NCBI GenBank assembly: GCA_944372245.1
Contig: CALVYN010000004.1
Coordinates: forward strand, 1 to 51,069
Direction of reading: 5' to 3'
DNA from: an uncultured Bacilli bacterium
GTDB lineage: Bacteria > Bacillota_I > Bacilli_A > RFN20 > CAG-288
DNA length: 51,069 bases
The notes under the pieces are model-generated. The model searched no databases and had not been told where the DNA came from. It worked only from the letters and a program-made list of their open reading frames with translations. Positions 5,871-50,366 of this stretch are shown here, one piece after another. The first letter of the stretch is position 1. Each line of letters opens with the position of its first letter. The translations under genes and the position numbers were made by a program.

Positions 5871-5887
5871 GAAAGGAGGTCTGAAGT

Positions 5888-7765: not shown

Positions 7766-9719
7766 TCAGGTGGGGGTGACCGCCCCCCTGTCGGTGCTCT
7801 CCTGCCGGGAGATCACCGAGCGCAACGCTGCGCGGGTCCGCCGCGCCAGCGTGCGGGTCGTCCACCTGGCCGAGGTCGATGCGCTGATCAAGGCCTCGCT
7901 CAAGGACCGCCAGCCTCGGGTTGAGAAACACGAGGCTGCCAGTGAGACCTCTGTAGCTTCCAATCCTGTGGCTACCTCCGAGGTTGCCCCTGAGGTCAAG
8001 GTCGAGGTCAAGGCTGAGACCGTCGAGGAGGCGCCTGCGGCTCAGGCTGAAGCGCCTGTGGCCGAGGCGGCTTCCGCGGCTGTGACCGAGACTGAGACTA
8101 AGACTGCGCCTGCAGCTGAGTCGGCGCCGGCTGCGCCCGCGGTTATCACCGCCGCGATGCGCCGCCCCGCCTACTGGTATCAGGGTGCGCTCCAGGCCTG
8201 GGATGAGGTCTGCAGCCAGATGAGGGCGAGCGACATCGAACCCGCCTACTGGTTCCACCACGCCCAGCAGGTCAACGCCCACGGCCGCGCCTACAAGTCT
8301 CTGGCTCAGGAGCATCGCGAGATGCCCGAGTGGGAGAAGCAGAAGCTGTCCCGCACTACCTTCGATCAGAAGCTGATCGACGACGATGTGATCCTCTCCG
8401 TCCGCCACCTCAAGAAGTTCTTCACCCTCGGCTCCGGCCTCAGCAAGGACAAGCTCAAGGCCGTCCACGACGTCTCCTTCGACGTCCACAAGGGTGAGGT
8501 CTTCGGTCTGGTCGGCGAGTCCGGCTGCGGCAAGACCACGACCGGACGCACCCTGATCAGGCTCCACGCCCCCACCTCCGGCTCGGTCTACTTCATGGGC
8601 TACAGGATCGCCGCCGGCGACCGCTGGAACCAGAAGGAGATCAAGTGGAAGCGCAAGCGCGGGCGCGCCATGATCAAGAAGCTCAAGCGCGACCGCCGCG
8701 CCGAGCTGACCGAGGCCAAGGCCGATGCTGCCAAGCGCGGCAGCATCCCCGAGATCAAGAGCCTGTACAGCCAGCACATCGCTGAGTCCCGGGCCCAGAT
8801 CAAGGCGACCATCGCCGAGCAGAAGGCCAAGATCAAGCAGATCCACTACGATGAGAGGCACGTCGACAAGCACCTGCTGACCAAGATGCAGATGATCTTC
8901 CAGGACCCCATCGACTCCCTCGACCCCCGCATGACCGTCCAGGACATCATCGCTGAAGGTCTGAAGATCCAGCACTACGGCCGCCGCATGACCGAGCGCC
9001 TGGAGCGCGAGCGCGACGACAACATCGCCAGGCTGAAGGCTTCCAACCTGCCCGCCAGCATGAAGGCTGACAAGGAAGCGTTCATCTGCGAGGACTATCG
9101 CCGCCGCATCGCCAAGGTCCAGGACTACAAGGGCCTGGTGGCCGACGTCCTGGCCAAGGTCGGCCTCATCCCCGAGTACGCCTCCCGCTATCCCCACGAG
9201 TTCTCCGGCGGTCAGCGCCAGCGTATCGGCATCGCCCGCGCCCTGGTCATGAACCCCGAGCTGATCGTGGCCGACGAGCCCATCTCCGCGCTGGATGTCT
9301 CCATCCGCGCCCAGATCATCAACCTGCTCAACGACCTCAGGGACGAGATGGGTCTGACCATCGTCTTCATCGCCCACGACCTCTCCGTCGTCAAGTACTT
9401 CTGCGAGCGCATCGCGGTCATGTACTTCGGCAACCTGGTCGAGCTGGCCACCTCCGACGAGCTGTTCAAGCACCCGCTCCACCCCTACACCAAGTCGCTC
9501 CTCTCCGCCATCCCCAAGCCCGATCCCCTCTCCGAGAAGACCCGTGTCCGCATCAAGTACAACCCTGCTGAGGACCACGACTACTCCCGCCAGGAGCCCA
9601 CGCTCCAGGAGATCGAGCCCGGTCACTTCGTCCTGGCTAACGACGCCGAGATGGAGAAGTACCGCAAGGAGATCGAGGAGGACGACCGCCTCGAGACTGA
9701 GAAGCAGCTCTCCGAGTAG
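7731..9719 (+). CDS. oppF: Oligopeptide ABC transporter ATPase OppF with an N-terminal extension and insertions
   Basis: 662 residues against about 310-330 usually. The first roughly 210 residues precede the ATPase core. They include an Ala/Glu/Val/Pro/Thr low-complexity stretch (about 80-145) that looks unstructured, then a Trp-rich segment (about 148-200). The ATPase has Walker A GESGCGKT at 262-269, Q-loop [11 protein letters not shown] near 388, signature FSGGQRQR near 490, Walker [14 protein letters not shown]-loop IAHDLS and the C-terminal [15 protein letters not shown] motif. A basic helical insertion (about 295-380) lies between Walker A and the Q-loop, and a second shorter one (about 405-455) before the signature. 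Start ATG follows AGGAG and lies inside the end of oppD, implying translational coupling. Last gene of the operon; a clear terminator follows. Confidence 0.92.
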
Positions 9720-9916: not shown

Positions 9917-12900
9917 CTAGTAGTTGCTGTTGAACGAGGCGGAGAAGGTGTAGCTGTTGGCGATGGGGTTGAAGGTGAAGTAGGCGGTGGTGCCATAGTC
10001 GTAGAAGGGGCAGCTGACCGTCTCATCCCAGGAGGCGGTGAACTCGGCCTCGCCGATGTTGGTGAAGGTCAGGGTGCCGCTGTTGTAGGTGTAGTTGAAG
10101 GTGGCTCTCTCGAGCTCCTCGCGGCTGTTGTAGTCCTTGAGGATGAAGACGCCGGTACCATCCTCATTGAACTCGACACCGAGGTAGTGAGGAGCCTCGT
10201 TATAGGTGACATAGGCATCGCTGTAGGTGTACTTCAGAACGGGGTTGGCGTAGTGCTTGGTGAAGGTGACCGACTCGGAGTTGGTGTAGCCCATGCGGAC
10301 GAGGTTGACGGCGAGGCTCTCGTAATCCAGGGCGGCATCGATGGACAGATCGGTGCGGATGTAGCCGAAGTAGGGGTCGTAGTGGCCCGCGCCGGGATCG
10401 GTGGTGGGGGTCTGACCGATTGCGATATAGGTGCCGGTCATGCCGGTGACCTCAGTGCCGCCGGTCAGGGTGAGGACGCCGTCGGTCAGGGTGTAGCTCA
10501 GGGTGTCGACATACTCGACATCGCCGTTGTTCTGGGTGATGGTCATGGTGCTGGCATCGGTATCGAAGGAGATGTGCGCACCCATGTACTCGCTGCCGTA
10601 GTCCCAGCTCTGGCTCAGGACGTTCTCGATGATGTCGTCGTTCGTTCTGGGCGGCAGGACCTCGATGGTGTAGGTCTCGGTCGTGACCAGGTCGTAGTCG
10701 GCGAAGCCGATCTTGAAGGTGTACTTGCCCTCCTTCAGACCGCGGATGACATAGCCCGCGGTGCCCTCGATGGTGGAGGAGGGACGGCGCAGCTCCAGCG
10801 CGCCGTCGGCGGGCTGACCCTGCTCGTCCTTGATGTCCTTGAGGACGAAGTTGTAGCCGTCAGGGTTGTCGGGAGTCGCGTTGATGAAGAAGCGGGCGGT
10901 GTCGGTGCCGAAGAGGATCTGACCGAAGTCGGTGGGGTGGTCAACGCGGATGGAGGCGGGCTCGCCGAAGTCGGTGTAGCGGATGATGAAGGATTTGGTC
11001 ACACCTTTGGAGGTGGTGAAGGTGACCAGGGACTTGCCCTTCACGGAGTTGCCCTGGTTGGTGAAGCTGTTGGCGACGATATAGATGTCGCTTCTAAGGT
11101 TGTTGACGGTGCAGACGGGGAGAGGAACCTCGGGGGTCACATCGCTCTCATCTCCCTGGTTGGCCAGGATGGTGTACTCGATGGGGGTGACCTTGACGGA
11201 GATGTCATCCAGCAGGACGCTGCCCGAGCCGGTCAGGCGCAGGGCAAAGCTCATGTTCGGGGTCATCGTGTAGACGGGATACCTCTGGCCCTCGTACTCC
11301 TCATAGTCAGGAATGTCCTTGGAGAGGTACTTGGTGTCATCGGTGAAATCGTACTGGTCGCTCTTCTGGCCGAACATGTTGTTGACATCGAGATAGCTGA
11401 CCAGCAGGTTGTCGATGACGATGCGGTTCTGGTAGCTCGTATCGGCGGTCTTGGTGCCGTAGGTCAGTTCGGCGGTCTCGCTCACGTAGTTGATGACCTT
11501 GGAGTCCTCTAGGACCACGGAGCTGAAGGCGTAGTAGGTCAGGCTGCCCTTACCATCGAACGCCAGGGTCAGAGAGATGGAGTTATCCAGGGTGGTGCCG
11601 AAGTTGTCGATGCTGGTGAAGACGGAGGTGATGCCGATGGCGTGGTCGGTGGAACGCACGACCATGTTGCGCTTGGCGGCGCTGTTGGCGATGGCGGGCG
11701 CACCCATGTAATCGGTGCTGGTCAGGATCTCGATAGCGTTGTTGACCAGGCCGTAGGTAGAACCATCGTCGTAGTTGAAGGCTAGGTTGGCATTCTGCTC
11801 ATATCCAGTCGCAGCGCTCTTGCTATAGACATCGTTGACATTTGTATTGCCGTAGTTGCTGGTATAGCTGAAGTTGTAGTAGCGCTCGTTCTGGATGCCG
11901 GAGTAGGCGTTGGTGACATTAATGTTGCTTCCGGTGTTGGTAGTTACGGGCTCGGTGATCGTGGTGTAGACCGCATCGGTAAAGTAATCGTACTGGATGG
12001 TCTTGTCCGAGGTCTCGGTGACATCGGTGTAGACGGGGTCGCCGGAATCATCGAAGCTGGTCTCGGTGGTGACGGTCTTGGTCGAGCGGCTGACCGTGGC
12101 CGAGGTGGCGCTCTCAGCCTCGGCGCTGACCGCGGCGGTCAGCTTTTCAGCCAGGGCGTCGATCGCCTCCTGGTTGGCGTCCTTGATCTGCAGCTTGAGC
12201 TCGCCGTAGACATACTCGGTCTGGGAGATGGGATAGCCGACCTGGAGGGTCAGAACCACATCATCCAGAGGCATCAGAACCTCGCAGACGCCGGTGGCGC
12301 GATCGACATCCACATAGCTCTCATAGGAGACGCCGGAGGTGTCGGGCAGCAGGCGGTAGAAGACGTCGCCCACAGGGGCGATGGGGTTCTCCACATCCAG
12401 GTTGTAGAGGACGTGGAAGGTCGAGTAGACATCGACGGTGTAGATGCCGCTCTCCTGGTCGAAGGTGGCCTCCTCCGCATCGATGTAGGGCAGGACCTTG
12501 GTGGGGACGTTCTTGACGGCGGAGACGGCGACCGTCCAGGTCGCGGTCTTGGCCGGATCGACGGTGGAGGCCGCCTGGATGGTGGCAGAGCCCTCCGCCA
12601 GTCCGGTCACGCAGCCGGTCTGGTCGACGCTGGCGATCTCGGGGGTCAGCGAGGTCCAGGTGACCCGGTTCTCGGGGTCACCCTCCACGCCGGCAGTCAG
12701 GGTGATCGACTGGCCCACGTTGACCGAGGTGGGACCCAGGATGCTCACGCTGGTGATGACCAGCTCCTGGCTGGAGCTCGAGTCCGAACTCGAGCTGGAC
12801 GAGGTGGAATCGGGCAGCTGAGTGCTAGGGGTCGAGGAGACAGGAGAGGAGGAGCTGTTGCCCTGCTCACCGGGGGTGCAGGCCGCGAGCGGCAGGACGA

Positions 12901-12940
12901 TTGTCGAGAGAAGACTCAACAGAAAATAGGGCTTTTTCAT
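9917..12940 (-). CDS. Large surface lipoprotein with a bacterial Ig-like (Big_2) domain
   Basis: 1007 residues from the ATG at 12940. An in-frame upstream start exists, but this one opens a proper lipoprotein signal: MKK, a hydrophobic core, then LPLAAC with the lipidated Cys at 21. A Ser/Thr/Pro spacer (about 25-60) follows. Residues about 62-140 match a group 2 bacterial Ig-like fold: the VGQSITLTA and VTWTSLTPEIASVD patterns and the GLAEGSATIQA turn are typical. The remaining roughly 860 residues are beta-rich, Tyr/Thr/Asp-rich and not recognised. Probably an exported, membrane-anchored protein for adhesion or glycan contact. It is transcribed from its own promoter (12974-13002), with an AAAGGA ribosome site, and ends at its own terminator. 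It follows a four-gene lipoprotein operon in the same direction but is not part of it. Confidence 0.82.
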   Translation of the reverse strand: MKKPYFLLSLLSTIVLPLAACTPGEQGNSSSSPVSSTPSTQLPDSTSSSSSSDSSSSQELVITSVSILGPTSVNVGQSITLTAGVEGDPENRVTWTSLTPEIASVDQTGCVTGLAEGSATIQAASTVDPAKTATWTVAVSAVKNVPTKVLPYIDAEEATFDQESGIYTVDVYSTFHVLYNLDVENPIAPVGDVFYRLLPDTSGVSYESYVDVDRATGVCEVLMPLDDVVLTLQVGYPISQTEYVYGELKLQIKDANQEAIDALAEKLTAAVSAEAESATSATVSRSTKTVTTETSFDDSGDPVYTDVTETSDKTIQYDYFTDAVYTTITEPVTTNTGSNINVTNAYSGIQNERYYNFSYTSNYGNTNVNDVYSKSAATGYEQNANLAFNYDDGSTYGLVNNAIEILTSTDYMGAPAIANSAAKRNMVVRSTDHAIGITSVFTSIDNFGTTLDNSISLTLAFDGKGSLTYYAFSSVVLEDSKVINYVSETAELTYGTKTADTSYQNRIVIDNLLVSYLDVNNMFGQKSDQYDFTDDTKYLSKDIPDYEEYEGQRYPVYTMTPNMSFALRLTGSGSVLLDDISVKVTPIEYTILANQGDESDVTPEVPLPVCTVNNLRSDIYIVANSFTNQGNSVKGKSLVTFTTSKGVTKSFIIRYTDFGEPASIRVDHPTDFGQILFGTDTARFFINATPDNPDGYNFVLKDIKDEQGQPADGALELRRPSSTIEGTAGYVIRGLKEGKYTFKIGFADYDLVTTETYTIEVLPPRTNDDIIENVLSQSWDYGSEYMGAHISFDTDASTMTITQNNGDVEYVDTLSYTLTDGVLTLTGGTEVTGMTGTYIAIGQTPTTDPGAGHYDPYFGYIRTDLSIDAALDYESLAVNLVRMGYTNSESVTFTKHYANPVLKYTYSDAYVTYNEAPHYLGVEFNEDGTGVFILKDYNSREELERATFNYTYNSGTLTFTNIGEAEFTASWDETVSCPFYDYGTTAYFTFNPIANSYTFSASFNSNY

Positions 12941-12973
12941 GTGTAAAACTTTCCTTTCGCTTCGACGCGATAG

Positions 12974-13002
12974 ATTATGCAACCACAGCATTTTCTTGTC
13001 AA
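12974..13002 (-). promoter_or_regulatory. Sigma-70-type promoter for the Ig-like lipoprotein
   Basis: On the minus strand, TTGACA (13002-12997) and CATAAT (12979-12974) are separated by 17 bases, 33 bases upstream of the ATG at 12940. One mismatch from consensus. Confidence 0.8.
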
Positions 13003-13097
13003 AGCGACAATGTTTGTGTAGTGGAGGACGGGTTTAATTCGAAAGGCAATCTTTCACTAGCAAAGTAGGATTGGAAAACTAAATATCTTTATATATC

Positions 13098-13130
13098 TGC
13101 AAACGAAAGAAGCCAGCTCGCGCTGGCTTC
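13098..13130 (-). terminator. Terminator of the four-gene lipoprotein operon
   Basis: GAAGCCAGC (13109-13117) and GCTGGCTTC (13122-13130) form a perfect 9-bp stem around a 4-base loop, followed on the minus strand by TTTCGTTTGC. It starts 6 bases after the stop of the last gene. The stretch 13003-13097 holds nothing else recognisable. Confidence 0.85.
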
Positions 13131-13135
13131 AGAGC

Positions 13136-15139
13136 TCAGGCCTGAGCCTGAGAGAGGTACTCCTCCAGCTCAGCGACCTGAGCGTGGCCCAGATCGAAGT
13201 AGGAGAAGCTGGTCATCATCATGTTGCCGGAGGGGTCGCTGAGGTAGAGGTAGGCGGTGAGCTTGTTCATCTTGGTGGAGGGGTCATCGCCCTGCAGGCT
13301 GGTGCGGAAGCCCAGAGCGTAGGGGGTCAGGGCCTGACCGCCATAGTTGAAGATGGAGAAGTAATCGACCACCCAGGCGTTGAAGGTGGGGTCGGTATTG
13401 ACCCACATGGGCAGGCCGTAGTCGTCGAAGAGGATGTAGTTATCCAGGTCGTACATGGCCGCCCTTACCGCCTCGGTCTGGTCGCTGAAGGTGGGGTGCG
13501 AGAGGTAGCTCAGATCGTCGCTGGCGCCGTAGTACTCGCCGGTGCCGGGCAGGACGATGTCGGCCGCGTTGCCGACGCTCACCTCGCCCGTGCCATCGAT
13601 CCGGATGTCGACCACGTGGCCATCCTCGAGGAGGAAGCCGTAGTCCGAGCCGCCATAGGACTGGTTGGCGTAGCTGGCGTAGTAGTACTCGGGCGTGTAG
13701 ATGGTCTCGCTCATGTAGAGCTGGCCCAGGCCGTACTGGGCGTAGCGGCCGGTCTCGAACAGCTCCAGGGCCCGGCCGAACTCGGCCTTGTCCTGGGTGG
13801 CGGCATCGTCGCCCTCATAGAGCAGGCGGTCTACCGGGGTGTTCACGGTGCTGTTGAGATCCTTGAAGGTGACGAAGGCCGAACCCAGCTGCTGGCTGGT
13901 GGTCAGGGTCTCGTAGGGAAACTCGACGGTGAAGCTGTGGCTGTCCCAGTCGTCGATGGTGATGAGGATCTCATCGACGTGGAAGGTGTCGTCGTAGCCG
14001 ACGTTGGACAGGTTGGCGATGGCCGAGATCAGCTGGGTGTTGCTGAGGTGGTAGACAGTCTCCCCATCCTCCTCGGTCATGTAGCCCATCAGGGAGGAGG
14101 CAGTCAGATTGAGGAAGCTCTGGCCGATCTCCTGAGCCCACAGGTCGGTCATGGCCGTGCCGGAGGCGTCGGCCGCAGCGATGGCCCCGAAGACGACATC
14201 GCTGTTGTCGTCGACCTTGTAGCCCACGACGGTGTTCATATATTGGACGTAGCCCGAGCCCTCGGTGATGTCGTCGACATAGCTGAACTCAGCCTCGTCG
14301 GTGAAGAGCTTGGTGTACTTAGGCGAGGAGATGCCGGAGGACTGGACCTGGCTCAGGTCGACCTCGACGGTGTAGTTGGTCGAGGCCAGATAGGGCAGCA
14401 TGAAGGCCACGAAGCGGTCGGAGACGTAGTCCTTGGCGGTGCCGCCCTCATCCAGGAAGGTCCTCACCAGGGACAGCTCGGTGGTGCCTACCTGGGTGAA
14501 GGTCGCGCTGACGGTATCCTGGTGGCCGCCTTCGTAGACCAGGCCGACGCCCTCGCTCTGCAGGGCGTTGCCGACTGCGCGGAACCTCAGGGAGGTGGGG
14601 TTGGAGGAGCCCTCGGTGTAGAGCATGCACATCTCGCGCATGATGGCGTCGTTGGCCTCGCTCACGCCGAACTGGTAGGTGTACCAGCCATCCTCGTCCG
14701 CCTGGGCGGGCAGCGCATCCAGGTCGATGTCCTTGAAGGTCGTGCGGAAGTCGGTGATGTCGGTGTAGCGCATGCCGGTGAAGGAGTCGATCGAGGGGGC
14801 CTGGGACTCGACGTGGCGGTCCTGGTTGGCGCCCTCGTAGGTGTAGGGGAAGATCAGGCCGTCGCCCTGGGCGACAGCGTTGAAGCCGAAGTAGCCATCG
14901 GTCTCGATGGCGTAGTCGGTGTAGTAGGTGTGCTGGGTGTAGTCTCTGGCCGCCCCGGCGTAGGAGAGGTCGTACTCCGCGGTGAAGTTGCCCTGGGCGA
15001 GGTTTTGAAACACCCGCTGCAGGGAGTTCAGCTCGGCGGTCTCCGCCTGTCTGACAGGGGTCTCAACGCCCTGGGTCAGGGTCGAGCAGCCGGTGGCGAG
15101 AAACAGGGCGGGCAGGGCGAGAAGCAGATATCTCTTCAT
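13136..15139 (-). CDS. Lipoprotein of unknown function, last gene of the surface operon
   Basis: 667 residues. Lipoprotein signal: MKR, hydrophobic stretch, LATGC with Cys18. No recognised domain. The body is acidic and rich in Tyr, Asp, Thr and Ser, consistent with an exported beta-rich protein. Unlike its operon partners it lacks a poly-Ser spacer. The first 100 residues after the Cys resemble the same region of the upstream neighbour (pattern: L..L...F.........Y.....A......H.Y.....T...GF), suggesting the two are distant paralogues. It starts 2 bases after the upstream stop, with GGAGG inside the end of that gene, so translation is coupled. The context with two M6 proteases points to a shared surface function, but no specific activity can be named. 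Confidence 0.75.
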   Translation of the reverse strand: MKRYLLLALPALFLATGCSTLTQGVETPVRQAETAELNSLQRVFQNLAQGNFTAEYDLSYAGAARDYTQHTYYTDYAIETDGYFGFNAVAQGDGLIFPYTYEGANQDRHVESQAPSIDSFTGMRYTDITDFRTTFKDIDLDALPAQADEDGWYTYQFGVSEANDAIMREMCMLYTEGSSNPTSLRFRAVGNALQSEGVGLVYEGGHQDTVSATFTQVGTTELSLVRTFLDEGGTAKDYVSDRFVAFMLPYLASTNYTVEVDLSQVQSSGISSPKYTKLFTDEAEFSYVDDITEGSGYVQYMNTVVGYKVDDNSDVVFGAIAAADASGTAMTDLWAQEIGQSFLNLTASSLMGYMTEEDGETVYHLSNTQLISAIANLSNVGYDDTFHVDEILITIDDWDSHSFTVEFPYETLTTSQQLGSAFVTFKDLNSTVNTPVDRLLYEGDDAATQDKAEFGRALELFETGRYAQYGLGQLYMSETIYTPEYYYASYANQSYGGSDYGFLLEDGHVVDIRIDGTGEVSVGNAADIVLPGTGEYYGASDDLSYLSHPTFSDQTEAVRAAMYDLDNYILFDDYGLPMWVNTDPTFNAWVVDYFSIFNYGGQALTPYALGFRTSLQGDDPSTKMNKLTAYLYLSDPSGNMMMTSFSYFDLGHAQVAELEEYLSQAQA

Positions 15140-15141
15140 GA

Positions 15142-16929
15142 TTAGCGTGCCTCCGTATCGGTCAGCGCGGCGAAGGTCTCATCCAGCGCGCTGACGCTGG
15201 TGGTCCCGATCTGGGAGATGGCCATGTTCATCTGGACCTGGTTAGCGGGATCCTCGGGGTTGTTGGCGTACAGGCGGATGTCGCACCCGTCGATGGCCTG
15301 GTCCGCGCCGCGGTGGATGATGGTCTCGCCGCGGGTGACGTCGCTGACCCAGGAGTCGCCGGGGACGAAGCCGAAGCCGAACAGGCCGTAGCCCAGGGTG
15401 GAGAGGACCGAGGCGTCGGTGGTGTAGTAGGTATCCGCCGCCTTGGGATCCTTCTCCATGTAGAAGCGGGCGATGTGGCCGATGGTGGCGGCCGAGGTGT
15501 AGAAGGTGGCGCTGTTGGTGATGTAGAAGTCGGAGACATCGTCGTACCAGTCGGTGTAGGGCGTGAAGCCGTAGGTGTCGTTGACCGCGTCGATGACCGT
15601 CCACTGGTAGGCGACGTTCTCCGCGGTGACGATGTAGAGCCAGCCCTCATGGCGCTGCTCCTCGGGCAGGGCCATGAGCTCCTCCTTGGTGTCGACCTGG
15701 ACGAACTTGACCGTGTCTGTCTCGTTGGGTCCGAGGCGGGAGATGAAGTGGGGCTGGCCGTCGACGAAGTCGAAGTCGTAACAGGCGGAGTAGGGGACCG
15801 AGGTCACCTCGCTGGGGGCGTAGGTGCCATCAGCCTGCCTGGTCTCCAGCTGGATCTCGACCCCGGCGGGGACGAACATGTAGCCGAAGTCGGTGTAGCC
15901 CTGCTGGTTGTAGGTATCGGTGTAGTCGATCAGGAAGTAGTTCTCCGTCAGCTGGGCATCGAAGGTGGAGAAGGTGCCGCCCTGGTTGGTCACGGTGGGG
16001 TGGATGGTGTAGTTATCCTGGTTCAGCATGCCCTCGTACAGGGTGACGATATCCTGATAGTAGGGCACGCCCTGAATCGTTCCATCCTCCAGCGCCTGGT
16101 CCAGGTCGTCATACTCGGTCTCCATCAGGGGCGTGAAGTCGGAGACGATTGAGCCGCGGTCGCCCAGACCGATGGTGACGCGGAAGCTGTTGGTGTAGGG
16201 GTCGGTGATGGTCAGGCGGCACTCGGTCATCAGCGAGGCGATGGACGAGCCCATCTGGGTCATGAACTGGAAGATCGTGTAGGTCGAGGAGGAGGTGATG
16301 AGGTATTCGGTCTCGCTCAGCTTGATGCCGGTCAGCTCGTCCAGGGTGGTGTCGGAGATGTTGTTCAGGCCCGCGATGCCGAAGACGCCGTAGAGGTCGG
16401 TCATCGGCTCGGGCTCATCGCCGGTGTAGTCGACGTACTCATACAGGGAGGCGCGGTAGCGGTCCAGGCCCTCCTGATCCTCGTCCACATAGAAGCGGAA
16501 GACGTTCTTATCGGCGCCATCCGCCTCCTCGGCCAGGCCGAAGCTGGCGGCGGGGTCGGTCAGGTTCTCCTCGTAGAAGTAGTGTTCGCCGTAGTGGTCG
16601 ACCACCTGGGAGGTCGCTCCGTCGATGTTGTAGGTGGTGGCGTAGGTGTAGGTCCTGAGATCCTTAAAGCCTTCGAGCAGGGTCTTCAGAGCCGAGACGT
16701 CGGTCATATCGACCTCGGCCTCGTCGTCGTACTGGCCGCCGCCCAGCTCGTCCTCACCCACCGGGGGCAGGTCGGGGTCGGGGGTGGAGGAGGAAGAAGA
16801 CGAGGAAGAGCTCGCGCCGGTGGAGACGGGAGTGGAGGAGGAAGAGGAGGTGTGGGAGGTCTGGCCTCCGGGCTGGCAGGAGGCGACGACGATCAGGGGC
16901 AACAGCAGCAGAAGTCTCTTGTTTCGCAT
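15142..16929 (-). CDS. Lipoprotein of unknown function with a poly-Ser spacer
   Basis: 595 residues. Signal peptide with lipobox VASC, Cys18, then two Ser-rich runs (about 26-50) ending in a Pro/Asp-rich hinge. The mature part is acidic and Tyr/Thr-rich, with no recognised domain, HExxH motif or other catalytic signature. Its N-terminal mature region resembles that of the next gene downstream, so the pair probably arose by duplication. The gene lies 2 bases from each neighbour: 16932 upstream and 15139 downstream. Likely anchored on the outer face of the membrane with the Ser-rich spacer crossing the wall. Confidence 0.75.
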   Translation of the reverse strand: MRNKRLLLLLPLIVVASCQPGGQTSHTSSSSSTPVSTGASSSSSSSSSTPDPDLPPVGEDELGGGQYDDEAEVDMTDVSALKTLLEGFKDLRTYTYATTYNIDGATSQVVDHYGEHYFYEENLTDPAASFGLAEEADGADKNVFRFYVDEDQEGLDRYRASLYEYVDYTGDEPEPMTDLYGVFGIAGLNNISDTTLDELTGIKLSETEYLITSSSTYTIFQFMTQMGSSIASLMTECRLTITDPYTNSFRVTIGLGDRGSIVSDFTPLMETEYDDLDQALEDGTIQGVPYYQDIVTLYEGMLNQDNYTIHPTVTNQGGTFSTFDAQLTENYFLIDYTDTYNQQGYTDFGYMFVPAGVEIQLETRQADGTYAPSEVTSVPYSACYDFDFVDGQPHFISRLGPNETDTVKFVQVDTKEELMALPEEQRHEGWLYIVTAENVAYQWTVIDAVNDTYGFTPYTDWYDDVSDFYITNSATFYTSAATIGHIARFYMEKDPKAADTYYTTDASVLSTLGYGLFGFGFVPGDSWVSDVTRGETIIHRGADQAIDGCDIRLYANNPEDPANQVQMNMAISQIGTTSVSALDETFAALTDTEAR

Positions 16930-16931
16930 CT

Positions 16932-18548
16932 CTAGTGCACCTCCGTGAGGTCCTCGACCGTGACGGTCGCAGACAGGGTTGAACCGTCGTTGAGGGTGTC
17001 CTCGTTCAGGAAGAAGTCGGCATACGTGGCGAAGGAGAAGGTGTCGCCCTCGCCGAAGTAGGAGCGGGCGGTCTGGAAGCCGCCGGTGGAGAAGGTGTTC
17101 TTGCCCTCGGCCTCGATCAGGCGGATTTCGTCGTAGGGGAAGACCTCAATGTCGAGGTTGAGGTCGTAGTAGTACTGGTTGTAGTCGACCGAGTTGGTGA
17201 TGGGGAGGATGAAGCCCTCGCCCTCGCTCAGCTCGGTGCCCTGGGCCTCGGTGGTCACATACTGGCGGGCGATCTCGTCGTAGCGGGTCACGAAGCGGCG
17301 GTTGTCGATATGGTAGATGCGCACGCCGGCTCTTTCGGGAGGCAGGGGGCGCTGGGCCACGGGGTACTCCCGGTCGAGAGCGTTGACGCCGGTGGGGGAG
17401 TACAGCTCGATGAGGATGTACTCGCTGAAGGGGTCGAAGACGCCATCCTCGACGGTCTGACCATCGGGCAGGAGGACGATGAAGCTGTTCTCCTGGTCCG
17501 CGGTCAGGGTGATGGTGGCGTCGCCCGAGACTACGTAGGGCTTCTCCCAGCCCAGCAGCATCTTGGTGTAGGCGTTGTGGTCGCCGATGTTGCCATCCAT
17601 CATGTCGACCTTGCCGACGGGGTTGTAGAAGGAGCGGTCGGAGTAGTAGTCGTTCAGGCCGAGGAAGTGGCCGGTCTCGTGGATGTAGGTGTGGGCGTCG
17701 GGATGGTCCTCGTAGGTGTCGTACATGAAGTCGTAGGAGGCCCAGCCGAAGAGGTTGTAGGCGTACTGGTTCAGATCGGGGTTGGGCGTGACCGACTGGT
17801 TGCCCCAGGAGGTGTAGGCCCAGAAGTTCTGGTCGTCGGTCATCGGGCCGTTGCGGCTGTAGTCCTCGGCCGAGTAGATGACCCAGATGCCGTCGTAGAA
17901 GCCATCCTTGTCGCTGTCGAAGTCCCGGCGGGACAAATGGTAGGTCTTGAAGGCCCAGCTGACCGCATCCTGGACTAGGTCGTAGGTCGCATCGATGGTG
18001 ACCTGGGCAGAGGCGGTGATGCCGGAGAGAGAGGCGTCGTACCAGTCGGTCACGGTGCCCGAGAGGCGCAGCTGGCCGTGGGAGGACTCCTCGTAGAAGG
18101 AGGCGACGGAGTGGATGCCCTCGGCGGTCTCCTCGCCGAAGAAGGCCTGCTCGATGTCGCTCTTGACCGCCGCCTGCTTCTCCTCCTGGGAGAGGGTGGC
18201 GGGCAGATCGGCCTCGGCGAAGCTCTTGTAGTCGGGCATCAGCACGGGGATGACCAGCAGGTTGACATCGCCCTTGGAGGGCAGGACCTGGGTGTTGTAG
18301 AAGCGGTCGTCCTCGATGGAGTGGAGGTCGTCGGCCAGGGTCACCTCATCCGGGGAGAGGACCTGTCCGCCCTCGGCTCCATCGATGCGGATGGTGGCTG
18401 AGTCGGCCGTAGGCTGGACGACGCTGCTGGAGGACGACGAGGAGGAAGAGGAGGTGGCGGAGGAGCTGCTGTCACCCTTGCTCGCCTGGCAGGAAGCCAG
18501 AGCCAGAGGCAGGGCCAGCAGCCCGATTAGATAGCTCTTTCGATTCAT
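16932..18548 (-). CDS. M6-family (immune inhibitor A-like) metalloprotease lipoprotein, second copy
   Basis: 538 residues. Lipoprotein signal ending LASC, Cys20, followed by a Ser-rich spacer (about 26-42). A zinc site HETGH is at 290-294, continuing into GLNDYYS. Downstream comes the conserved VDMMDGN turn and KMLLGW, the layout of M6 peptidases (HExxH...GL.DxY...DxM...K...GW). Predicted extracellular, cell-anchored endopeptidase. About 110 residues before the HExxH there is a D.DKDGFYDG stretch that could bind calcium. It is a clear paralogue of the preceding gene: both share GDVNLLVIPV, a DIE.AFFG segment and a TDW(Y/F)D segment. Seven bases separate the two. Physiological substrate unknown; host or dietary protein is plausible. 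Confidence 0.85.
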   Translation of the reverse strand: MNRKSYLIGLLALPLALASCQASKGDSSSSATSSSSSSSSSSVVQPTADSATIRIDGAEGGQVLSPDEVTLADDLHSIEDDRFYNTQVLPSKGDVNLLVIPVLMPDYKSFAEADLPATLSQEEKQAAVKSDIEQAFFGEETAEGIHSVASFYEESSHGQLRLSGTVTDWYDASLSGITASAQVTIDATYDLVQDAVSWAFKTYHLSRRDFDSDKDGFYDGIWVIYSAEDYSRNGPMTDDQNFWAYTSWGNQSVTPNPDLNQYAYNLFGWASYDFMYDTYEDHPDAHTYIHETGHFLGLNDYYSDRSFYNPVGKVDMMDGNIGDHNAYTKMLLGWEKPYVVSGDATITLTADQENSFIVLLPDGQTVEDGVFDPFSEYILIELYSPTGVNALDREYPVAQRPLPPERAGVRIYHIDNRRFVTRYDEIARQYVTTEAQGTELSEGEGFILPITNSVDYNQYYYDLNLDIEVFPYDEIRLIEAEGKNTFSTGGFQTARSYFGEGDTFSFATYADFFLNEDTLNDGSTLSATVTVEDLTEVH

Positions 18549-44962: not shown

Positions 44963-45424
44963 CTACTTCTTCGCGCTGGCCTTGGGTTCGACGAGAACGT
45001 TCATAATTCCGTATACACCCTTGTACAGCTCGACCTTGACGTGGGACATGCCGAAGGCGTTGACGATGTTGTGCTCGGGGAAATCCTCCTTGTCCACGCT
45101 GACGTTGAGCTTCTCCCTCAGGGCCTTCTTCAGCTCCTTGATGGAGATGGTGCCGATCATGGCGCCGCGGTTGCCCACCGGCGCCTCGAAGCGGAAGACG
45201 ATATCCTCGAGCTTCTTGGCGATGGCCTGGGCCTCCGCGGTCCTCTTGGCCTTCTCCTGGGCGATGGCTAAGAGCTCCTTCTCGCGCACCTTGACCGCCT
45301 CCTTGGTGTAGAGGACGCCCAGGCCCTGCGGGATGATGAAGTTCGCTCCGTAACCGTCCGAAACCTCGACGACATCGCCGGCCTTGCCGACCTTTCTCAC
45401 GTCCTTCTTGAGCAGAATCTTCAT
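44963..45424 (-). CDS. rplI: 50S ribosomal protein L9
   Basis: 153 residues. N-terminal domain MKILLKKDVRKVGKAGDVVE and VSDGYGANFIIPQGLG, a long connecting helix (about 42-75), and a C-terminal domain with GTISIKELKKAL. L9 protrudes from the large subunit and helps keep the reading frame. It follows gdpP by 34 bases and precedes dnaB, a conserved Firmicutes order. Confidence 0.97.
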   Translation of the reverse strand: MKILLKKDVRKVGKAGDVVEVSDGYGANFIIPQGLGVLYTKEAVKVREKELLAIAQEKAKRTAEAQAIAKKLEDIVFRFEAPVGNRGAMIGTISIKELKKALREKLNVSVDKEDFPEHNIVNAFGMSHVKVELYKGVYGIMNVLVEPKASAKK

Positions 45425-45458: not shown

Positions 45459-47486
45459 TCAGGAGTTCGTCCGCGTCAGCGTACGCCTCCTATTATCCGT
45501 TTTTTTGCTGGGCTCGGGTGCATAATCGCCATCGTTGAGCACGGCGATCAGCTGCTGCTTGACCGCCTCCAGGTCGGTCGAGACGACGGTGGCCGCGGCC
45601 GAGGAGAAGTGGCCGCCGCCCCCGAAGGCCTTGACGATCTTCTCGACGTTGAACTTGGGGTTGGAGCGGGCCGAGATGCCGATCTTCTCGGGCGAGATGC
45701 GCCCGATGGCGAAGGCGGCATCGTTGCCGGCGATGGTCATCGCCTGGCTGGCCACCATGGCCAGCATCGTGGTATCGACGATCTCGTCGGAATCGGGATC
45801 GACCGCGATGCAGATGTTCTCGGCGTAGTTGGAGGCGTTCTTGAGGAACTTGATCTTGGTCTTGAACTGCTCGTAGTTCTCGCGGGTCATCGAGGTCGCC
45901 ACCTTGGGCGAGGCCCGGCGGTTGAGCAGGTAGGACATGGCCTTGTAGGTGGGCTCGGCCACCTTGGAGCGGAAGCGGGTCGTGTCCACCATGGTGCCGG
46001 CCAGCATCATCGTGGCCGCCCCGTCGATCATGTTGATGGGGATGGGCGAGGCCTCGATGTATTCCGCCAGGAGCTCGCAGGCCGAGGAGGCCGAGGAGTC
46101 AGAGCCGTTGAAGACCACGTGCTTGAAGGTGCGCTCGGACTGGCGGTGGTGGTCGATCAGGGCGACCCGGACGTCGGAGTCGTAGCTGATGAAGTTGGGG
46201 TAGACCAGCCGCTCGGGGGCGGAGACGTCCACCAGGACCACCAGGGTCTTCGAGCTGATGGCATCGAGGGCGTCCGCGCAGTCGATGGTCAGCTCGTCGA
46301 GGTGGTCGCGATACTGGTCCTCGAAGGCCTTGCGGCACTCCTGTTCGGTGTTCTCGGGCACGTAGACGATGCGGCACTTCACCCCGAGGGTGTTGCAGAT
46401 GCTCTTGACGCCCAGGCAGGCGCCGATGCTGTCGAAGTCGGCGTAGGTGTGGCCCATGGTCAGGACCAGCTCCGACTCTTGGATGGCGGCGATCAGCTCC
46501 TTGGACAGCAGCCTGATGCGGGCGCGGTTGATCGTGGCCTTGGACTCGGTGGTGCCGCCGACGTATCTGGCCGCCTTGCCGAACTCGCTGATCAGGGCCT
46601 GGTCGCCGCCGCGGGCACCGGCCAGCTCGACGTTGCTGTAGGCTTCCTCGCAGGCCGAGGCCAGGTCGGGGAAATTTCTTGCAACTCCAACGGAGATGGT
46701 CGAGATGGAATTATTCATCTCGCGCACCTCGCGCACGATGGAGAGCTCGTTGTCGACCTGCTCCAGGGGCTGGTCGTTCTCGCCGATGATGATGTAGGTA
46801 TCATCGCGCACGGAGCGGATGACGTAGCGGCCCTCGCCGATGCCGTAGAGGGTGGTGGACAGCTGGTTCATCCACTTGGCGACCGCCACCTCGCCCACGG
46901 CGGTGATGCGGTCGGCGTAGTTGTCCACGCGGGCGAAGGCGACGAAGGGGGCCGCGTTGCGATAGTCCCGCTGCCGCCCTCTGAGCTCGGACTCATCCTT
47001 GAGGATGAAGAGCCCGGCGCTCTTGACCAGCTCGACATCGAAGCTGTGGTTGTTGAAGTCGATCCGGTTGTTGGTGATGCCGGACTCGAACATGGTGCCC
47101 AGCTGGGGCGTGACCTCTCCGATGGGCTTCTCCAGGGCGGCCACCCCGACCTTGGCCATGTAGTCGCTCTGATAGGTGACGATCCCCTTCTCGTCCACCA
47201 GGATCAGACCCACGCGGCAGCGCTCCAGGGCGTGGCTGATCTGGGGGCCGTAGACGTCGGTCAGGCTCATGTCGCCCGCATCGGAGACGTGGCGGATGCG
47301 CCAGTAGAAGAACCAGCCCGTCAGCAGGGTGGCTAAGACTAGGCTCAGCCCCACGGCCAGACCGACGGCCCAGTAGTAGTCGAAGGGGACCAGCAGGATG
47401 CAGACCAGGATGACTATGGCGGCGACGGCGGAGATGCCGCACAGGATGCCGGCGGCGGTCACCATTCTCTTGGCTATCTTGTTCAC
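45459..47486 (-). CDS. gdpP: Cyclic-di-AMP phosphodiesterase GdpP
   Basis: 675 residues. Two N-terminal membrane helices (about 8-30 and 38-60), a PAS-like sensor (about 85-165), a degenerate GGDEF domain (about 170-305, ending RGGDQ), and the DHH/DHHA1 hydrolase. Catalytic motifs: GHTYADFDS at 345-353 (His346, Asp350, Asp352), VDVSAPE, D445-H446-H447, TMVDTTRF and GGGGH at 622-626. Cleaves c-di-AMP to pApA, lowering the second messenger that governs osmolyte uptake and wall stress. Starts with GTG overlapping the upstream stop as GTGA, with GAGGAGG upstream. The neighbour upstream is a second, catalytically empty copy. Confidence 0.95.
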   Translation of the reverse strand: MNKIAKRMVTAAGILCGISAVAAIVILVCILLVPFDYYWAVGLAVGLSLVLATLLTGWFFYWRIRHVSDAGDMSLTDVYGPQISHALERCRVGLILVDEKGIVTYQSDYMAKVGVAALEKPIGEVTPQLGTMFESGITNNRIDFNNHSFDVELVKSAGLFILKDESELRGRQRDYRNAAPFVAFARVDNYADRITAVGEVAVAKWMNQLSTTLYGIGEGRYVIRSVRDDTYIIIGENDQPLEQVDNELSIVREVREMNNSISTISVGVARNFPDLASACEEAYSNVELAGARGGDQALISEFGKAARYVGGTTESKATINRARIRLLSKELIAAIQESELVLTMGHTYADFDSIGACLGVKSICNTLGVKCRIVYVPENTEQECRKAFEDQYRDHLDELTIDCADALDAISSKTLVVLVDVSAPERLVYPNFISYDSDVRVALIDHHRQSERTFKHVVFNGSDSSASSACELLAEYIEASPIPINMIDGAATMMLAGTMVDTTRFRSKVAEPTYKAMSYLLNRRASPKVATSMTRENYEQFKTKIKFLKNASNYAENICIAVDPDSDEIVDTTMLAMVASQAMTIAGNDAAFAIGRISPEKIGISARSNPKFNVEKIVKAFGGGGHFSSAAATVVSTDLEAVKQQLIAVLNDGDYAPEPSKKTDNRRRTLTRTNS

Positions 47487-49678
47487 TTTGACTCGTCCTC
47501 CTCATCCTCGTCCTCGTCGGTGGGAGCCTCGGGCTCGATAGCGGGCTTATCGACTGCGACCTCGTCCAGCTCGTGCTCCTCGCTCTCCAGCTCGGGATAG
47601 GGGTCCTTCGCCCCCAGAGCGCGGGCGATGGCGGAGATCAGGTGGCGGCGAACCTCCTCCAGGTCGTCGGATTCCACCCGGGCCAGCGTGCGCTCGCCGT
47701 GGGTGGTGGTGTGGCGGGACAGCTGGTGCATGATCTGGGGGATGGGCAGCGCCCCGTCGCCCCGGCCGGCCACGGAGATCTCCTGATCCCCGCTGCGGGA
47801 GAGGGCGAAGGCGGCCGAGATGTGGGCGACGTTGAGCGCGTCGTTGAGGGCCGCATCCAGAGCCTCGGAGGAGAGAGTGGTCTTGCGCCAGTCGGGGTCG
47901 TAGCAGACCAGGACGCCAGGGAAGGGGATATCGGAGGTGTTGAGGATGTCCATCCTGGCGCGGAACTCCTCGCTGGTCTCCTTGAGCATGTCCAGGGCGT
48001 TCTCGTTCTCCGCGCCCTGGCGCTCTAGGAAGGCGGCCGAGAGGAAGGTGTTGGCCCTGGTTTTGACCGTGAAGCTCTGGGTCGCACCGAGGATTCCGGT
48101 ATAGAGGAGGGTCGCCACGAAGGTGGGCAGGTGGAGGCTGGACATCGTCGTCTCGATCATCCCGGCTACCAGCTCGGAGAAGCAGGAGGCCTGGCCGATA
48201 TCCAGGGTCAGGACCGGATGGGTGAAGGTGGTGGGCACGGGGTCCCGCCCCTTGATGATGATGGTGCGCAGGCTCTCCTCGCCCTGGAAGAGGCTGGGGG
48301 CGCAGGAACCCTCGGGCGTGGAGAAGCCGACGCAGATCATCAGAGTCTCGGGCCGGATATCCCTCTTGGCGGCCTGGGCGCGCTTGGCGGAGCCGTTCTC
48401 CTGGGCGTGGGTGCACCAGCGGGAGGGGCCGCTGCGGGCCCGCTCCTGGAGCGAGTCGATATCGAAGACCCAGAAGCATGGGATGCCGGTGGAGGTGACC
48501 ATCTCGTTGAGGGCGATGGTGGCCGCCAGCTCGTCGAAGCCGCTGCTGGCGGGCGGCACGATGATGACGTTGGGGGACTTGCGCACCTCGGCCAGCAGGC
48601 TCTGGCACCACTCGGAGAGGATCGCACGCGTCGAGAACTGGATGGAGTTGTCCCCGCCGGTCACCAGGTTGCCCTCGGGGGTCGAGACGATCAGCTGGTC
48701 GCCGCCGCGGGAGTTGCACAGGCCCAGCGCCTCGGTGGCGTGCTTGGACAGCTCGACGAAGGAGGTGTAGCCCCAGGCGATGGCCACCGAGATGGTCACG
48801 GTGCCGTCCATGCGCCTCTTCAGCTCCGAGCAGAGGGGATAGCCGTCGGCTCGGATCTTATCCAGGCACGACTTCTCGCCCAGGAGGATGAAGGTGGAGT
48901 CGGAGCTCTGGCCGATGTAGACGCGATAGCGGTTGGCAAAGTCGGTCAGGATGTCCCTGACCTTGCCGATCGTCTCGGCAATCTGGATCTCCGCCTGGGT
49001 GGCCGTTTTAGCATTCTTTCCGTATTCAGAGAAATTGTCTATCTGTATAAAGCCCAGAATCGAGGACTCTTCCTCGATCGTCTCATTGAGGCACACTATC
49101 CTCGTAATATCCTGGACGAAGAAGCAGTAGTCCGCGGAGGAATACCAGGCGCGGAAGCTGCGGTTCTCCCTCTTGAAGACCGTGGGATGGTCGGTGTCCC
49201 GCCCCTTGATGACCGCGTCGCGCAGCTCGGGCGCGATGACCTCGACGCCCTCGCCCACGCCGGTGAAGCCGTTGTCGACCAGATAGGAGCTGATCCAGAC
49301 GATCCGGTCATCCTGGTCGATGGCGATCACGCCGCACTGGCCGATGGCCGCGGCCTCGACCGCGCCGACGGAGAGGATCATGTTGGCGTTGTTCTCCTCG
49401 CGGATGCGCGAGCGCTTGAGGGCGACGGCGAAGCCGCAGATGATGGCCAGGCCGATGAGCACGAAGACGGTGACCAGGATCCAGCCCGCACTCCAGAAGT
49501 GGCCATGGTCCATCGCAGCGGCGCAGATGAAGAACAGGCCCAGCGCCACCAGGGCTGCGCCCGCGTATATCCAGAGGGTCAAACGCATCCACCTCATGAG
49601 GATCTGGACCTGGGAGGCGCCGAAGCGCCTACGCGGCCTCTCGCTCCACATCTTCAGTATTTTCTCTTTGATGCTCAT
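47483..49678 (-). CDS. GdpP paralogue lacking catalytic residues (putative pseudoenzyme)
   Basis: 731 residues from the ATG at 49678; a GTG three codons upstream is possible. Same architecture as GdpP: two membrane helices (about 38-58 and 68-88), PAS-like region, degenerate GGDEF ending RGGDQ, then a DHH-like domain. The alignment of key segments shows losses. GHTYADFDS becomes PPASSGFDE (375-383), so His and the first Asp are gone. VDVSAPE becomes VGFSTPE, DHH becomes KGR, TMVDTTRF becomes ILGATQSF, and GGGGH has no counterpart. An acidic tail (DEDEDEEDE) ends the protein. Overlaps gdpP by 4 bases, so both are made together. It may pair with GdpP and sense or regulate rather than hydrolyse. 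Confidence 0.85.
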   Translation of the reverse strand: MSIKEKILKMWSERPRRRFGASQVQILMRWMRLTLWIYAGAALVALGLFFICAAAMDHGHFWSAGWILVTVFVLIGLAIICGFAVALKRSRIREENNANMILSVGAVEAAAIGQCGVIAIDQDDRIVWISSYLVDNGFTGVGEGVEVIAPELRDAVIKGRDTDHPTVFKRENRSFRAWYSSADYCFFVQDITRIVCLNETIEEESSILGFIQIDNFSEYGKNAKTATQAEIQIAETIGKVRDILTDFANRYRVYIGQSSDSTFILLGEKSCLDKIRADGYPLCSELKRRMDGTVTISVAIAWGYTSFVELSKHATEALGLCNSRGGDQLIVSTPEGNLVTGGDNSIQFSTRAILSEWCQSLLAEVRKSPNVIIVPPASSGFDELAATIALNEMVTSTGIPCFWVFDIDSLQERARSGPSRWCTHAQENGSAKRAQAAKRDIRPETLMICVGFSTPEGSCAPSLFQGEESLRTIIIKGRDPVPTTFTHPVLTLDIGQASCFSELVAGMIETTMSSLHLPTFVATLLYTGILGATQSFTVKTRANTFLSAAFLERQGAENENALDMLKETSEEFRARMDILNTSDIPFPGVLVCYDPDWRKTTLSSEALDAALNDALNVAHISAAFALSRSGDQEISVAGRGDGALPIPQIMHQLSRHTTTHGERTLARVESDDLEEVRRHLISAIARALGAKDPYPELESEEHELDEVAVDKPAIEPEAPTDEDEDEEDESK

Positions 49679-49701
49679 CCGTGCCACCGCCTATCTGATG
49701 G

Positions 49702-49754: not shown

Positions 49755-50366
49755 ATGCAGAGATTGACTTTCGCCGATATCCCGGCGGCCGCCGCGATCC
49801 TAAAGCGGGGCGGCCTGGTGGCCTTTCCCACCGAGACGGTGTACGGCCTGGGCTGCCGCTTCGACGACTGCCTGGCCTACGACCGCCTCGTCTCGGTCAA
49901 GCGGCGGCCGGCCGACAAGCCCTTCACGATGATGTTGGCCGACCCCTCCCGCATCGGGGAATACGCCCTGGTCGATGCGCGCCAGCAGCGCTTGATCGCG
50001 CGCTTCATGCCCGGCGAGGTGACCTTCATCCTCAAACGGCGGGACACCATCCCCGACAGGGTCGCCCTCGGTGGTCCGACCATCGGGATCCGCGTGCCCG
50101 CGCATCCGGACCTTCTAGAGCTTCTCAGAGCGGTGGATGTTCCCCTCCTAGTCCCCTCCTGCAACCGCTCGGGCGAGCCCCCCGCCCCCGATGCGGATGC
50201 CATCGAGAGGATCTTCCACGATGAGATCGACGCGGTCATCGACGGCCCGCTGGGCGACTCGATCCCCTCGACCGTCGTCCTCCTCACCGGGGCGGAGCCC
50301 AAGATCCTCAGGCAGGGGAAGGTTGCAGCGGAGGCGATCATGAGAGAATGGAACAGGGAGGAATAG
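49755..50366 (+). CDS. tsaC: L-threonylcarbamoyladenylate synthase (Sua5/YrdC/TsaC)
   Basis: 203 residues. Makes threonylcarbamoyl-AMP from threonine, bicarbonate and ATP, the first step of the t6A37 tRNA modification. YrdC motifs: FPTETVYGLG at 24-33, KRRPADKPFTMML from 49, the TIGIRVPAHP strand and PSCNRSGEPP. The length fits the TsaC type, without the extra C-terminal Sua5 domain. GAGGAGG precedes the ATG. Divergent from the gdpP-like operon, and 2 bases upstream of rpiB. Confidence 0.94.
   Translation: MQRLTFADIPAAAAILKRGGLVAFPTETVYGLGCRFDDCLAYDRLVSVKRRPADKPFTMMLADPSRIGEYALVDARQQRLIARFMPGEVTFILKRRDTIPDRVALGGPTIGIRVPAHPDLLELLRAVDVPLLVPSCNRSGEPPAPDADAIERIFHDEIDAVIDGPLGDSIPSTVVLLTGAEPKILRQGKVAAEAIMREWNREE

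Follow-up and report, generated by a model that had tools for sequence, protein, structure and literature searches.

A Degenerate GdpP Copy Encoded in Overlap with the Intact Phosphodiesterase Gene of an Uncultured Bacilli Bacterium

The presence of two GdpP-type genes side by side, one of them intact and the other apparently stripped of its active site, raises the question of what role a degenerate copy of a c-di-AMP phosphodiesterase may play next to the working enzyme. The window analyzed here, that is, the whole stretch of 51,069 nucleotides, is one entire contig (CALVYN010000004.1) of a draft genome of 1.12 Mb in 61 contigs (90% complete, with 0.9% contamination), and the named relatives of its gdpP gene are uncultured Bacilli or Bacillales genomes from metagenomes. 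The locus contains the following features, in which the degenerate copy is referred to as pseudo-GdpP.

44963..45424, minus strand: rplI, the gene after gdpP, in the conserved order gdpP-rplI-dnaB-walJ-rlmH
45459..47486, minus strand: intact gdpP gene, encoding a c-di-AMP phosphodiesterase of 675 aa that has the DHH and DHHA1 domains and the complete set of catalytic residues; GTG start at 47486
47483..47486, minus strand: 4-base overlap GTGA between the pseudo-GdpP stop and the gdpP start
47495..47503, minus strand: GAGGAGGAC, a Shine-Dalgarno-like stretch for gdpP, within the codons of the acidic tail of pseudo-GdpP, about 10 bases before the gdpP start
47483..49678, minus strand: pseudo-GdpP gene, 731 aa, ATG at 49678, stop TGA at 47485-47483, alternative GTG start at 49687; a GdpP homolog without the DHH catalytic residues
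49702..49731, minus strand: promoter-like site TTCACC-18-TATAAT upstream of the pair, the best match of the region, by consensus only
49755..50366, plus strand: sua5-type gene, a divergent neighbor, also found beside a lone gdpP in contig L055

The coordinates, the reading frame and the 4-base overlap given in the initial annotation of this DNA proved to be right. The minus-strand order in the window is the pseudo-GdpP gene, gdpP, rplI, dnaB, a walJ-type gene and rlmH. Co-transcription and translational coupling of the pseudo-GdpP gene and gdpP are likely, given that one promoter-like site lies ahead of the pair, that consensus matching found none at the junction between the two genes, and that the Shine-Dalgarno match is located inside the tail of the upstream gene.

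Other parts of the window contain genes of unusual size. The oligopeptide ABC transporter genes at 3855-9719 (plus strand) are unusually long, and include an OppC-like protein of 671 aa, whose permease domain is confined to residues 479-666, and a pair of ATPases (625 and 662 aa), the first of which has its ABC_tran match at residues 34-452, indicating a long insert inside the ATPase domain. Four large adjacent genes are found at 9917-18548 (minus strand), one encoding a 1024-aa Big_2 protein and one a protein with a weak peptidase M6 match, while two (667 and 595 aa) have no Pfam match at 1e-5.

The second gene of the pair encodes a recognizable, albeit divergent, member of the GdpP family, with the following regions.

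49376..49615, minus strand: two membrane helices (aa 22-55 and 61-101), from two hydropathy peaks and the structure model
49109..49369, minus strand: PAS-like region (aa 104-190), 17.9 bits against a Pfam cut-off of 27 (active copy 19.5 bits, likewise below), its strands present in the model
48680..49063, minus strand: GdpP-type GGDEF domain (aa 206-333) with RGGDQ intact, PF24898 GGDEF_GdpP at 66.8 bits, 2.8e-18, cut-off 30
48083..48643, minus strand: degenerate DHH domain (aa 346-532), with P376, G380, D382, G451, KGRD476-479 and A532
47975..48082, minus strand: inter-domain helices (aa 533-568), the dimer face in the family, well kept, from the structure model and alignment
47615..47974, minus strand: degenerate DHHA1 domain (aa 569-688), R639 and H660 kept, GGG replaced by TTT657-659
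47486..47578, minus strand: disordered acidic tail (aa 701-731), pLDDT of about 40, with no counterpart in GdpP

Pairwise alignment of the two proteins, which the initial annotation had proposed as a check, shows that they are homologous across 673 aa, with 21% identity (E 2e-37), and the shared domain order with an RGGDQ-type GGDEF is confirmed by Pfam, the structure model and the alignment. The PF24898 score is higher in pseudo-GdpP than in the active copy (40.7 bits). The DHH/DHHA1 homology is seen solely through pairwise searches and the fold, as no Pfam DHH or DHHA1 match was obtained up to an E of 1, and a DHH profile search of the whole genome matched gdpP, two frames of about 330 aa (NrnA-sized) and one RecJ-sized frame, and missed the pseudo-GdpP gene. 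In the pairwise searches, residues 205-684 matched the PDB GdpP 9n0l at 2.3e-23, and the catalytic domain 5xsi was recovered at 9e-12. Modeled with AlphaFold2 (mean pLDDT 81.7), the protein has two membrane helices, the folds of PAS, GGDEF, DHH and DHHA1, and a tail that is disordered; the pTM of 0.46 leaves the packing of the domains uncertain, and an input alignment full of GdpPs biases the model towards the GdpP fold. The top Foldseek match is 5xsp, the GdpP catalytic domain with pApA (E 5e-27, TM 0.76-0.81 of the target). By the same tests of sequence and structure, the active copy is a normal GdpP, matching 9n0l at 1e-45.

Pseudo-GdpP shares with the GdpP/YybT family (PF24898, PF21370, PF01368, PF02272; PDB 9n0l, 5xsi, 5xsp) the order of two membrane helices, PAS-like region, GGDEF and DHH-DHHA1, a GGDEF model score above the cut-off, and the fold match of the catalytic part. 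It differs in the absence of five of the six metal ligands, the DHHR motif, the GGG loop and a Pfam DHH/DHHA1 match, in its extra acidic tail, and in its position as an additional copy next to an intact gdpP.

The reference for the metal site is the DrRecJ-like protein (8IOO), in which two metals are bound by H34, D38, D40, D95, H121 and D171, and in which alanine replacements leave almost no activity (PMC11229311). The equivalent ligands of the active copy are H346, D350, D352, D420, H446 and D501, all six of which are kept in each of 100 aligned relatives, while pseudo-GdpP has P376, G380, D382, G451, G477 and A532 at the same positions. The DHHR motif has become KGRD and the GGG loop TTT, and both motifs are kept by all 100 relatives. 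In Staphylococcus aureus, GdpP with D418A or D497A (B. subtilis YybT D420 and D499) has no phosphodiesterase activity (PMC3164647), and the equivalents of these two residues in pseudo-GdpP are G451 and A532. The motif changes reported initially (GHTYADFDS to PPASSGFDE, DHH to KGR, VDVS to VGFS, and TMVD to ILGA) are all correct in the alignment, and no metal ligands were found elsewhere in the protein. The claim that every catalytic residue had been lost holds for five of the six ligands, DHHR and GGG, but not for the third Asp of HxxxDxD (D382, equivalent to D352 of GdpP), the DHHA1 arginine (R639, equivalent to R607) and the GGGH histidine (H660, equivalent to H626); the reported lack of GGGGH, similarly, applies to the glycine loop but not to its histidine. 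Among the aligned GdpPs, this histidine is an asparagine (GGGN) in 24 of the 100, with the DHH ligands intact in all 24. Judged from these residues, pseudo-GdpP is almost certainly dead as a catalyst, and the hydrolysis of c-di-AMP by the known mechanism may be ruled out with high confidence.

The loss of the ancestral site may, in principle, have been accompanied by the remodeling of the DHH pocket for a new enzymatic or binding activity, as the fold is predicted to be intact and several positions have been swapped for specific new residues. This is very improbable, however, given that no new cluster of His, Asp, Glu or Cys is found in the stretches of motif that surround the metal site, where only D382 (and E383) are present.

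The main rival explanation is that pseudo-GdpP acts away from GdpP as a stand-alone receptor, which would relay a signal elsewhere upon binding a nucleotide, be it c-di-AMP, pApA or a ligand of the GGDEF domain. The retention of the GGDEF domain and of R639 and H660, which probably correspond to residues that bind phosphate in DHHA1 enzymes, is consistent with this role, for which LapD, a c-di-GMP receptor with a degenerate GGDEF-EAL, provides a working precedent (PMC5231407). Like pseudo-GdpP, LapD is a membrane protein composed of second-messenger enzyme domains with degenerate active sites, but its messenger and domains are different, and its output and ligand are known, whereas the partner of pseudo-GdpP is probably the active enzyme itself. 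The substitution of the GGG loop by TTT and of the Arg after DHH by Asp, which reverses the charge, would leave the c-di-AMP pocket badly altered, and the tight coupling to gdpP speaks for a common task, so that a receptor of this type is considered unlikely.

The integrity of the gene itself bears on two further possibilities. No stop interrupts the 731 codons of the frame, its third-position GC is 0.82-0.98 in each hundred-codon block from end to end, and its codon preference resembles that of its neighbors and the contig. With 3.5 changes per column, pseudo-GdpP has the longest branch of the tree, and its mean path length indicates evolution some 1.3 times faster than in the active copy. 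Path lengths from the window to its relatives are 1.29 times the usual for rplI, 1.17 times for dnaB, 1.33 times for gdpP and 1.76 times for pseudo-GdpP, and this last excess over the other three led to the rejection of fast evolution across the genome as the cause of the divergence. The gene shows no decay, as a decaying gene would not be expected to remain open at such divergence. An origin by faulty assembly or binning might be suspected in a metagenome-assembled genome of 61 contigs, but is scarcely credible here, given the agreement in codon use with the contig, the presence of the expected gdpP-rplI-dnaB order, the grouping of pseudo-GdpP with the GdpP of the window and its family in the tree, and the low contamination. 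The gene is real and coherent. The loss of the ligands, the single promoter-like site, the Shine-Dalgarno match in the tail and the lack of decay together provide good support for a catalytically dead copy of GdpP that would be produced together with the active one.

The pair is known from this single metagenome-assembled genome. Related genomes were sampled as 279 of the order, 391 of the class and 245 of the phylum, which overlap and amount to approximately 650 distinct genomes, none from the same genus. The same pair, which the initial annotation had suggested seeking in relatives, was not found in this set, in which no second genome encodes a pair of full-length GdpP-like proteins. Those genomes with two matches that were inspected were rejected as pairs, given that they consist of contig-end fragments, a single gene broken in two, or weak matches to DHH proteins of approximately 310-340 aa. 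All 80 named loci have one GdpP copy each, and back-translated patterns recovered no relatives of the pseudo-protein from the collections of genome and viral contigs.

Contig L055, from a genome of the same family (G004), contains a divergent rpiB/sua5 block followed by gdpP-rplI-dnaB-walJ-rlmH, with no gene of the pseudo-GdpP type between sua5 and gdpP, which represents the state without the duplicate. In this contig, rpiB and sua5 are seemingly fused in one 369-aa frame (L055:1394-2503), while they are separate, overlapping genes in the window. Two loci elsewhere have an interrupted gdpP: in L038 (G273, of the same order), the single gene is found as two overlapping frames, a GGDEF half of 348 aa and a DHH half of 388 aa, through either true fission or a sequencing frameshift, and in L036 (G270), the break coincides with a masked run of N. 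In the tree, both copies group with three sequences of the same family (97/87), and a topology that forces the two copies, both long branches, into a sister pair is neither rejected (p 0.25) nor proven. The simplest account of pseudo-GdpP would be that the gene was duplicated within the family and that the copies then diverged.

The pattern of conservation across the domains provides a further line of evidence. Each alignment column was scored for conservation by comparison with 41 order-level relatives, and the result is expressed as a fraction of the mean of the family itself. The values for pseudo-GdpP and the active copy, respectively, are 0.31 and 0.52 in the PAS region, 0.56 and 0.53 in the GGDEF domain, 0.26 and 0.79 in the DHH core, 0.56 and 0.39 in the inter-domain helices, and 0.35 and 0.79 in DHHA1, while the sequence of the membrane part of pseudo-GdpP is hardly kept. 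The ratio of catalytic to regulatory conservation in pseudo-GdpP (0.55) is outside the range of 100 relatives (0.96-1.80), whereas that of the active copy (1.73) is high, but inside it. Across regions, the two copies differ with a p of 7e-7 (6e-5 without the active-site motifs), and the block-bootstrap interval of this difference is 0.75 to 1.99, the latter being the safer guide, given that the regions were picked once the domain layout was known and that adjacent columns are not independent. The inter-domain stretch begins after the last ligand and, in a mapping made by offset from the D171 anchor rather than by superposition, contains the positions of F185, Y213 and L220 of the DrRecJ-like protein, at which changes gave a monomeric protein (PMC11229311). 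Within the GGDEF domain, D225, associated with a weak ATPase in B. subtilis, is S261 in pseudo-GdpP, and this loss, like the weakly kept PAS and membrane sequences, the faster evolution of the copy and its occurrence in a single genome, weighs against a retained regulatory role.

The loss of the ligands is selective, in that the GGDEF domain and the inter-domain dimer helices are preserved as well as or better than in the active copy, while DHH and DHHA1 are not, which is a new result. On this pattern, the constraint on catalysis appears to have been lifted in pseudo-GdpP, while its GGDEF and dimer parts were held under tighter constraint. The same pattern, together with the 731 open codons at very large divergence and the neighbor-like codon use along the entire length, argues against a dispensable duplicate in the process of being lost, which is improbable, even though the gene evolves fast and is absent from all the relatives searched.

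The preferential retention of the GGDEF domain and the dimer-interface helices fits a hetero-oligomer of pseudo-GdpP and GdpP, for which the odds appear to be about even. Neither of the outcomes that the initial annotation named as refuting its reading is observed, given that no ligands were found elsewhere in the protein and that the gene, although absent from the relatives searched, shows no decay. The two proteins would be co-translated in the membrane and would associate via the inter-domain helices as well as their PAS/GGDEF regions, while the PAS/GGDEF part of the dead subunit would set, and most likely dampen, the activity of the sole working active site, so that the breakdown of c-di-AMP may respond to signals read by a subunit that needs no catalysis. 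Dimerization is required for the function of the DrRecJ-like DHH/DHHA1 protein. Point changes in the GGDEF of GdpP reduce its activity (PMC3164647), and the catalytic part of the Enterococcus faecalis GdpP is approximately 13-fold more active alone than in the whole protein (PMC10243994); given this, a PAS/GGDEF subunit could plausibly restrain GdpP. The genome has the synthesis gene CdaA, and its candidate c-di-AMP phosphodiesterases are GdpP and the two NrnA-sized DHH frames, while PgpH was not found in this 90% complete assembly.

Other known systems resemble the pair only in part. The atypical GdpP of M. bovis (PMC10720645) is also a divergent GdpP of a small-genome organism, but it lacks the PAS, still hydrolyzes c-di-AMP, and does not accompany an intact gdpP as an additional copy. 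The DHH-DHHA1 dimers of the NrnA/DhhP type (PDB 8IOO, 5JJU) have the same catalytic fold and dimer helices, but are active homodimers without a sensory part. No earlier description of a dead GdpP paralogue was found in the literature searched, in which subscription journals are sparsely covered.

A dead subunit with its GGDEF and dimer faces kept is most likely a regulatory partner that would restrain or tune the active subunit. This reading, in which a gdpP duplicate became a pseudo-phosphodiesterase and was retained to regulate the active GdpP as one of its subunits, has an equal chance of being right or wrong. The control of GdpP activity by signals through its PAS and GGDEF domains is a named open gap in the field (PMC10243994). 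More tentatively, the pair may represent a two-subunit GdpP in which sensing is split from catalysis, with the regulatory parts drifting in the subunit that has the active site and the GGDEF and dimer faces kept in the other, which would be the first hetero-oligomeric c-di-AMP phosphodiesterase. A natural pair of this kind would separate sensing from cutting, and the mixing and matching of its subunits would make the question of how GdpP is regulated testable.
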